A DNA stretch of 35,913 bases, from positions 1 to 35,913 of the forward strand of contig JAUWGT010000004.1 in the NCBI GenBank assembly GCA_030606265.1. Reading direction: 5' to 3'. This document shows positions 19,896-21,979 of the stretch, piece by piece. Position numbers and translations under genes: made by a program. Below the pieces are notes generated by a model. The model had not been told where the DNA came from. It worked only from the letters and a program-made list of their open reading frames with translations, and searched no databases. The number at the start of each line of letters is the position of its first letter. Position 1 is the stretch's first letter. Origin of the DNA: Candidatus Stahliibacteriota bacterium. GTDB taxonomy: Bacteria > Hydrothermota > Tepidihabitantia > SM23-42.

Positions 19896-19923
19896 ATTAT
19901 AGTAACAATACCAATATTGTCAA
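19896..19923 (-). promoter_or_regulatory. Promoter TTGACA-N16-TATAAT for TonB receptor gene
   Basis: Minus strand TTGACA atattggtattgttac TATAAT. Confidence 0.75.
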
Positions 19924-19946
19924 GGTTTTGAGGTCCATATTGATAC

Positions 19947-19974
19947 TTGACATGTACTCCATTTTGAGTACAAT
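19947..19974 (+). promoter_or_regulatory. Promoter TTGACA-N16-TACAAT for MNT-HEPN operon
   Basis: Consensus -35/-10; -10 lies inside the 42-bp palindrome. Confidence 0.75.
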
Positions 19975-19994
19975 TGTACTCAAAATGGAGTACA
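19953..19994. promoter_or_regulatory. 42-bp perfect palindrome, candidate autoregulatory operator
   Basis: TGTACTCCATTTTGAGTACAA|TTGTACTCAAAATGGAGTACA; four GTACTC/GAGTAC half sites. Confidence 0.85.
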
Positions 19995-19998
19995 AATA

Positions 19999-20574
19999 AT
20001 GTTAATGAGCCTATATATCACAAAATCAAAAATCAGACAAGATCTGTTTGCGCTTTACTTCACCAACCCAACTCAAAAATACTATCTAAGAGAACTGCAG
20101 CGCATTTTGGGTTATTCTGCTGGTAGTATTCGTCGAGAACTTTTAAAATTCCAAAAAGATGGTTTATTTGGTACACAAAAGGTCGGTAATCTGCTTTACT
20201 ATTCCTTGAACACCAAGCATCCGCTTTTTAATGAGCTGAAAGCTATTGTTTCAAAGACGGTAGGAATTGAGGGCAGTCTAAGGAGTTCCCTATTGACCAT
20301 CAAAGAAATAAAATTTGCATTCATATATGGATCTTTCGCCGCGAAGCGCGAAAAAGGCACGAGCGATATAGATCTCATGATAATAGGTGATCCAGATACA
20401 TCTAGATTGAATGAAAAAATCACTGAATTGGAAGAGAAACTGAAGCGAGACATAAATCCAACGGTCTACGCTTTAAAGGAATATAGAGCCAGAAAAAGAT
20501 CCAAGAGTGGTTTCATTACGGACTTGTTAAGAAATCCAAAAATCATGTTGATAGGTGAAGAAAATGATTTATGA
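19999..20574 (+). CDS. wHTH-fused minimal nucleotidyltransferase (MNT), antitoxin-like
   Basis: N-terminal wHTH (YYLRELQRILGYSAGSIRRELLKFQKDGLF) and GSFAAKREKGTSDIDLMIIG (GSx..DxD). Confidence 0.87.
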   Translation: MLMSLYITKSKIRQDLFALYFTNPTQKYYLRELQRILGYSAGSIRRELLKFQKDGLFGTQKVGNLLYYSLNTKHPLFNELKAIVSKTVGIEGSLRSSLLTIKEIKFAFIYGSFAAKREKGTSDIDLMIIGDPDTSRLNEKITELEEKLKRDINPTVYALKEYRARKRSKSGFITDLLRNPKIMLIGEENDL

Positions 20575-21010
20575 AGATTCAAAAGAGAATCTTTTAAAAC
20601 AGGGGTTGATCAAAAGATGTCCTGTAGACTGGAAAGCTGTCAATAATCTTATTAAAAGGGCTTATACTGACCTGAAAACTGCTGAACGAAATATTTCTGA
20701 TGATGAAGAATGTGCTTACAACTATGCCTATAATGCTATGTTGCGTTCAGGGTTGGCTTTGATGTTCAGTACAGGATTCAGACCTGAGATTAAAGATAAG
20801 CATTTAACTATTGTAAAATTTGCCAGCTCAATATTGGGGATAAAACTCAGAAAGATTATCAATGATTATGATTTCATGCGGAGAAAAAGACATCGCTTCG
20901 TTTATGAACCTGATATTCCCTGTTCAGGAAAAGAGGCATCAGATGCATTAAGAACCGCAAAGAAATTCGTAGACACGATCAGCAAAATGATAAAGACGAA
21001 AAATCCGTAA
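20564..21010 (+). CDS. HEPN-domain protein, partner of MNT
   Basis: Helical, AYNYAYNAMLRSGLALMFSTGFRP...DFMRRKRHRFVYEPDI; start overlaps MNT stop (ATG 20564; track GTG 20555). Confidence 0.8.
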   Translation: MIYEDSKENLLKQGLIKRCPVDWKAVNNLIKRAYTDLKTAERNISDDEECAYNYAYNAMLRSGLALMFSTGFRPEIKDKHLTIVKFASSILGIKLRKIINDYDFMRRKRHRFVYEPDIPCSGKEASDALRTAKKFVDTISKMIKTKNP

Positions 21011-21039
21011 ATCTGTTTAGATTTATAGCACTATATAGA

Positions 21040-21067
21040 TTGACAACCTACGTAAATTTGATATAAT
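21040..21067 (+). promoter_or_regulatory. Promoter TTGACA-N16-TATAAT, probably the ancestral tRNA-Asn promoter
   Basis: TTGACA acctacgtaaatttga TATAAT agaat TCCTCGGTAGC (tRNA-Asn 5' head). Confidence 0.7.
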
Positions 21068-21069
21068 AG

Positions 21070-21194
21070 AATTCCTCGGTAGCTTCAGCCCGAGGCTGAC
21101 TCCGACAATTGTCGGAGCAATGCTGAGTGAAACGAAGTCCGCCTTTGGCGGAGTAGAGCATTCTTCTCTGGCGGAGGTTGTTTAATGAAAGAAT
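21070..21194 (+). repeat. tRNA-Asn-head/hairpin repeat, copy 1 (125 bp)
   Basis: Near-identical to 21431-21560; contains CTCCGACAATTGTCGGAG and TCCGCCTTTGGCGGA hairpins. Confidence 0.92.
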
Positions 21195-21197
21195 ATT

Positions 21198-21443
21198 ATG
21201 TTTACGGTGTACATAATTGAGAGTTTACGAAATGGTAAGCGGTATACGGGTTTTACAACGAAGACTGCTTCTCAGCGACTTGTCCAGCATAATCGGGGAT
21301 GTAATAAATGGACAAGAGAAAATAGACCGTTTCGACTGATTTATGAAGAGTCATATGACACGGAGAGGGAAGCCCGTCAGCGTGAGATATTTCTAAAGAC
21401 GGGAAAAGGAAGACAACTGATTAATAATAAAATTCCTCGGTAG
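21198..21443 (+). CDS. GIY-YIG nuclease family protein
   Basis: TVYIIESLRNGKRYTGFTTKTASQRLVQHNRG; last codons and stop lie in repeat copy 2. Confidence 0.85.
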   Translation: MFTVYIIESLRNGKRYTGFTTKTASQRLVQHNRGCNKWTRENRPFRLIYEESYDTEREARQREIFLKTGKGRQLINNKIPR

Positions 21444-21560
21444 CTTCAGCCCGAGGCTGACTCCGACAATTGTCGGAGCAATGCTGAGTGAAACGAAGTC
21501 CGCCTTTGGCGGAGTAGAGCATTCTTCTCTGGTCTGGCGGAGGCTGTTTAATGAAAGAAT
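21431..21560 (+). repeat. tRNA-Asn-head/hairpin repeat, copy 2 (130 bp)
   Basis: Same as copy 1 with a 5-nt insertion (ggtctgg vs gg); directly abuts tRNA. Confidence 0.92.
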
Positions 21561-21632
21561 TCCTCGGTAGCTCAATGGTAGAGCATCCGGCTGTTAACCG
21601 GAGGGTTGCAGGTTCGAATCCTGCCCGAGGAG
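21561..21632 (+). tRNA. tRNA-Asn (anticodon GTT)
   Basis: TCCTCGG acceptor pairs CCGAGGA; anticodon arm TCCGG-CTGTTAA-CCGGA; T arm GCAGG-TTCGAAT-CCTGC; CCA not encoded. Confidence 0.96.
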
Positions 21633-21634
21633 TG

Positions 21635-21727: not shown

Positions 21728-21979
21728 ATGTGGTATGTCTATATCATCGAATGTTCCGATAAATCACTATATACTGGCGTGACTTCAGACATTAACCGCC
21801 GCCTAAAAGAACACAATTCTGGTAACGGCGGGAAATATACGAGGGGAAGAATTCCAGTTACCCTGGTATACTATAAATCCTTCAAATCCAAATCTGAAGC
21901 ACTAAGGAGAGAGATCCAACTTAAGGGGTGGACTCAGGCAAAAAAGATAGCGCTAATAGAAAAAACCATATTAAATTGA
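21728..21979 (+). CDS. GIY-YIG nuclease family protein (second, divergent)
   Basis: MWYVYIIECSDKSLYTGVTSDINRRLKEHNSGNGGKYTR. Confidence 0.9.
   Translation: MWYVYIIECSDKSLYTGVTSDINRRLKEHNSGNGGKYTRGRIPVTLVYYKSFKSKSEALRREIQLKGWTQAKKIALIEKTILN

Follow-up and report, generated by a model that had tools for sequence, protein, structure and literature searches.

Two adjoining plus-strand genes of the window (the whole 35,913-nt stretch of DNA that was analysed) are preceded by a promoter that is overlain by a long palindrome (Table 1). The product of the first gene matches the nucleotidyltransferase families NTP_transf_2 and Polbeta of Pfam and, over nearly its full length, the PADLOC profile PDC-M05A (7.6e-56); that of the second matches the HEPN family PF05168 and PDC-M05B (9.3e-12). 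The AlphaFold model of the first protein (mean pLDDT 87) has an N-terminal wHTH, with helices at residues 11-22 and 30-37, a recognition helix at 41-53 and a wing at 57-70, followed by a C-terminal MNT domain. Matching folds in the PDB include MntA (7bxo), other HEPN-MNT antitoxins and ArsR-family repressors, the N-terminal domain resembling the ArsR-type repressors PagR, HlyU, SqrR and CadC. A first-pass annotation of this DNA had described an operon for an MNT with its own wHTH and a HEPN protein, and both the profiles and the model bear this out.

Profiles and motifs identify the operon as a class II HEPN/MNT (PDC-M05) pair. A PDC-M05A-type MNT adjoins a PDC-M05B-type HEPN, the GSX10DXD motif of the MNT is intact (GSFAAKREKGTSDID), and the assignment to class II follows from the replacement of RX4HXY in the PF05168 HEPN by R-x-K-R-[NH]-x3-Y, the form seen in homologues and, as FMRRKRHRFVY, in the window. 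The RX4HXY motif of class I (type VII HepT/MntA) is thus absent from the HEPN, and the MntA_antitoxin equivalog of NCBIfam scores 28.5 bits against a cut-off of 60. Nor is there a DUF1814/AbiEii toxin gene downstream, as in AbiE type IV systems, this place being taken by the HEPN gene. Class II modules (PF05168/PF01909) likewise keep GSX10DXD and the conserved Tyr and lack RX4H, and their HEPN toxicity is unproven (PMC7641770); PDC-M05 itself appears in the literature as a candidate defence system with the architecture of a toxin-antitoxin pair (PMC12988326). We infer the roles of toxin and antitoxin for the HEPN and MNT proteins, respectively.

Table 1. Features of the wHTH-MNT/HEPN operon, its putative operator and the adjoining promoter (window coordinates).
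Feature	Position	Strand	Basis or remark
Promoter of divergent TonB-dependent receptor gene	19896-19923	-	Consensus match; outside module
Module extent	19932-21044	+	Left, end of homology with module-free same-genus genome G002; right, end of homology with the G003 copy
-35 box TTGACA, MNT/HEPN operon	19947-19952	+	Promoter match; TTGAC(A) in same place in many homologues
Perfect 42-bp palindrome, putative four-half-site operator	19953-19994		Sequence; layout conserved, words changing in homologues
Inverted repeat 1, GTACTC-CATTTT-GAGTAC	19954-19971		Promoter spacer into -10 box
Core inner palindrome GAGTAC-AATT-GTACTC	19966-19981		Centred on -10 box
-10 box TACAAT	19969-19974	+	Overlain by inner half-sites
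Inverted repeat 2, GTACTC-AAAATG-GAGTAC	19976-19993		Over predicted start site and Shine-Dalgarno
Shine-Dalgarno GGAG	19987-19990	+	Sequence; part of fourth half-site
wHTH-MNT protein, 191 aa, proposed antitoxin and autorepressor	19999-20574	+	Profile matches, model, GSX10DXD
HEPN protein, proposed toxin, 151 aa (listed start, GTG 20555)	20555-21010	+	Profile matches, class II type motif

The palindrome, which reads TGTACTCCATTTTGAGTACAATTGTACTCAAAATGGAGTACA, is perfect over 42 bp, and no other near-neighbour inverted repeat of the window comes close to it in length, the two runners-up having 14-nt arms with mismatches. Both copies of GTACTC-N6-GAGTAC that had been proposed to compose it are present. 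The whole is better described as four 6-bp half-sites, GTACTC-N6-GAGTAC-N4-GTACTC-N6-GAGTAC, with two repeat centres 22 bp apart; as this is about two helical turns, the two repeats lie on one face of the DNA. With up to two mismatches allowed, GTACTC-N6-GAGTAC matches twice in the window, both times in the palindrome (0.56 expected). No further exact site exists in the 2.28-Mb assembly, where the nearest other one (C165:7438) has one mismatch, and a regulon elsewhere in the same genome was rejected on this ground. The operon promoter, TTGACA-N16-TACAAT, agrees with the consensus at 11 of 12 bases, and the palindrome spans its spacer, its -10 box, the expected start site and the Shine-Dalgarno sequence, which lies 8 nt ahead of the ATG of the MNT gene. 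The overlaps with the spacer, TACAAT and GGAG reported in the first-pass annotation therefore hold.

Relatives were drawn from 147 genomes of the phylum of the window and, beyond this phylum, from GTDB genome contigs and plasmids. In homologues that are 46-73% identical the four half-sites recur in the same arrangement and at the same point of the promoter, and many of these promoters also have TTGAC(A) in the equivalent place. Loss of the palindrome upstream of orthologous MNT genes, named beforehand as an outcome that would speak against an operator, was thus not what was found. The homologues in question come from MAGs labelled WOR-3, Omnitrophota, Cloacimonadota, Aerophobetes, Spirochaetes and others, and close ones (68-73% identical), from MAGs labelled as several other phyla, have the same promoter and the same half-site word; phylum labels of single MAGs could be affected by binning errors. 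One Omnitrophota homologue (L034) is likely a decayed copy: it is 68% identical from residue 16 on, but where a start codon and an operator would be expected it has neither. A search of the 147 genomes for the core 16-mer, GAGTACAATTGTACTC, with at most one mismatch gave six matches, and five of these immediately precede a wHTH-MNT gene; the reversed control gave none. Among viral contigs no MNT homologues were found; tetrad matches there were set aside as chance, those examined adjoining unrelated genes.

In distant relatives the layout persists while the letters of the half-sites are altered together within a site. Apart from GTACTC, the words are GTAACC (L009, L035, L063), GTAGTC (all four half-sites of L053), GTACCC (L010, L017, L020, L062) and GTTCNC (L013, L014, L016, L019), the GTACCC class having a 5/4/5 spacing that places the repeat centres 21 bp apart. 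An architecture-only scan, blind to the word, scored 24 of 45 non-Bacteroidota loci above all 200 of their dinucleotide shuffles (about 0.2 expected; the window and L025, both among the 24, are near-identical), and in an independent sample of eight plasmid loci it gave P <= 0.06 in seven. Half-sites within a locus agree with a mean identity of 0.80, against 0.58 when permuted (maximum of 5000 permutations, 0.63), a contrast that is inflated by the choice of loci for internal agreement, so that the shuffle test and the partial Mantel test described below carry more weight. Outer or inner half-sites are degenerate at some loci (L008, L055, L063), and some distant loci (L060, L071) have weak tetrads or none. 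In a subgroup of loci (L015, L018, L061, L065) the operator resembles a direct repeat, with two copies of TTGACTACAAAATGTATACAA spaced by about 21 bp. In several distant homologues (L012, L016, L017, L062) the operator reaches into the predicted coding sequence of the MNT, its last half-site overlapping the start codon and the codons next to it.

The word of the half-sites follows the recognition helix of the adjoining MNT protein. In 25 loci, chosen because their tetrads are internally consistent, words differ more between loci the more the recognition helices do, also once divergence in the remainder of the MNT is accounted for (partial Mantel r = 0.41, P = 0.0006), and the reverse test, word against the rest of the MNT given the helix, is not significant (P = 0.07); tests of this kind do not fully remove phylogeny. 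Locus L056, at only 46% identity, retains both SAGSIRRE and GTACTC, while others at about 50% identity combine IPVSMI with GTAACC. In the loci compared, base 5 of the half-site is T or G where residue 40 is S, and C where it is G, and residues 40, 42 and 45 are candidates for setting the word. Since the word tracks the helix and the core 16-mer occurs mostly at wHTH-MNT promoters, the wHTH-MNT protein itself appears by far the likeliest reader of the site.

The palindrome is thus very probably the autoregulatory operator of a toxin-antitoxin-like wHTH-MNT/HEPN operon, which the wHTH-MNT protein would repress at the level of DNA. Autorepression by this protein had been expected in the first-pass annotation, and the conservation of the site and the coupling of word and helix support it at the sequence level. 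The operon also combines the traits of an autoregulated toxin-antitoxin system, a DNA-binding domain linked to the antitoxin and a repeated operator on its own promoter. From the observed anatomy, conservation, helix coupling and genomic uniqueness of the site we infer binding, dimer stoichiometry and repression as follows. The ArsR-type wHTH would bind the GTACTC half-sites, probably as two dimers seated side by side on one DNA face, 22 bp apart, and covering the -10 box, the start site and the upstream end of the leader. Because the -10 box, start region and Shine-Dalgarno sequence lie inside the site, bound protein should keep RNA polymerase from starting, and the level of the protein would then govern its own synthesis, the operon restarting when antitoxin is lost. 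HEPN may join wHTH-MNT in repression, perhaps with an effect of its own on binding.

The palindrome might instead work as RNA, through a 19-bp leader hairpin that hides the Shine-Dalgarno sequence, as the first-pass annotation had also considered, and the 42 nt do fold stably as RNA (-29.2 kcal/mol, z = -10). However, with the -10 box inside the palindrome the expected transcript begins at about 19980, within the right arm, so that the hairpin would not be part of the mRNA; the fold of the mRNA from 19980 onward is no better than that of shuffles (z = 0.19), and the gene upstream of the palindrome is divergent. Words A and B agree, moreover, the half-sites thus recurring in direct orientation too, which would be superfluous for a hairpin. 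The start codon of several homologues is overlapped by the final half-site, and no Rfam family was matched. Occlusion of this kind is consequently highly improbable. Recognition by a host regulator other than wHTH-MNT deserves mention since the case for wHTH-MNT as the binder is built on sequence comparison, but it too is very unlikely: the genome has no other exact site, the core 16-mer is nearly confined to wHTH-MNT promoters in the 147 genomes, changes of word go with those of the MNT recognition helix, and the module takes the site along from phylum to phylum.

The borders of the module bear on two other readings. Genome G002, of the same genus, keeps the divergent gene for a TonB-dependent receptor (96% identical protein) and its upstream region and lacks both operator and module; its homology with the window ends at 19931, before the operon -35 box and operator, and the intervening DNA differs. 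The module of G003 matches at 96% identity as far as window position 21044. With the operator absent where the module is absent, and with the G003 copy, operator and genes thus act as one cassette of about 1.1 kb. As the left module edge is only some 20 bp from the palindrome and the module seems mobile between phyla, the palindrome could be a mobility signal, either a transposon end or a recombination site. It is, however, present on one side of the module only, with no second copy in the window, no copy at the right junction and no target duplication seen, and in homologues it keeps its place with respect to the -10 box and the start codon; a mobility signal is extremely improbable. The TonB gene has a minus-strand promoter matching the consensus at 12 of 12 bases (TTGACA from 19923, TATAAT to 19896), and its co-regulation was earlier thought possible. 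Its -35 box starts only 29 bp from the palindrome and the arrangement is retained in G003, but G002 has the same TonB promoter region with neither operator nor module, and joint control is unlikely, although repressor bound to the operator could have a side effect on this neighbour.

Downstream of the module, a tRNA-Asn(GTT) gene (window 21560-21633) is intact in the window and split in both G002 and G003 by a group I intron (Rfam RF00028, 94-99 bits; L108 552-900, L109 1529-1792). A GIY-YIG ORF (21198-21443, in the region 21060-21560) is flanked by two copies, 95% identical, of an element of about 130 bp that starts like the nearby tRNA-Asn (TTCCTCGGTAGC), and a further GIY-YIG-like ORF is found at 21728-21979.

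In type VII HepT/MntA systems the MNT AMPylates a tyrosine of the HEPN protein, neutralising it. The operon of the window resembles HepT/MntA of Shewanella oneidensis (SO_3166/SO_3165) in the order MNT then HEPN (PMC7641770, PMC4621449), in the GSX10DXD of the MNT, the conserved Tyr of the HEPN and the fold match to 7bxo. SO_3165 (MntA) binds its own promoter, in which there are two dissimilar palindromes near -10 and -35, and has no recognised DNA-binding domain (PMC4621449). In contrast, the MNT described here has an N-terminal wHTH, its putative operator is one symmetric block of four half-sites, and its partner is a class II HEPN (PF05168) without RX4H rather than a class I HEPN with RX4HXY. 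A regulatory parallel is offered by the AbiEi-family antitoxins of AbiE (type IV) systems, which repress their own operon via inverted repeats over the promoter (PMC7319586, PMC3985639); they also have an N-terminal DNA-binding domain, and in Rv2827c there are four repeats, the two pairs being separated by 4 bp (PMC7319586). The AbiE repeats, however, are 23 bp long, and it is the nucleotidyltransferase-like protein, DUF1814, that acts as toxin there, HEPN playing no part. The N-terminal domain of the MNT protein of the window shares its fold with the ArsR/SmtB-family wHTH repressors, but no sensor site was recognised and the wHTH is fused to a nucleotidyltransferase. In the literature searched, no operator or regulatory mechanism was found for class II HEPN/MNT (PDC-M05) modules, nor any report of a wHTH-MNT operator.

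A conserved, co-evolving operator offers a direct handle by which autoregulation, and effects of HEPN or of the NTP state, are open to reporter assay, and the natural pairs of word and helix make a ready set of orthogonal repressors. In a broader reading, for and against which the case is about evenly balanced, wHTH-MNT and its operator would form a portable, re-codable specificity unit whose word is set by the recognition helix, and which in Bacteroidota would have been retired from toxin-antitoxin duty to become a dedicated regulator of extracellular polysaccharide clusters, with no more of the site left than the core GAGTA-N7-TACTC over the TAnnTTTG -7 box. This side branch looks like a domestication and suggests a concrete path from a toxin-antitoxin module to a surface polysaccharide regulator. 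It comprises 16 related loci of Bacteroidota and Ignavibacteria (within L036-L052), in which GSX10DXD is absent and no recognisable HEPN was found. Most of those examined adjoin Wzz, UDP-sugar dehydrogenase, NusG-type, ABC2 or glycosyltransferase genes. GAGTA-N7-TACTC is perfect in 11 and has a single mismatch in one more, and at several loci it is placed over a TAnnTTTG -7 box.
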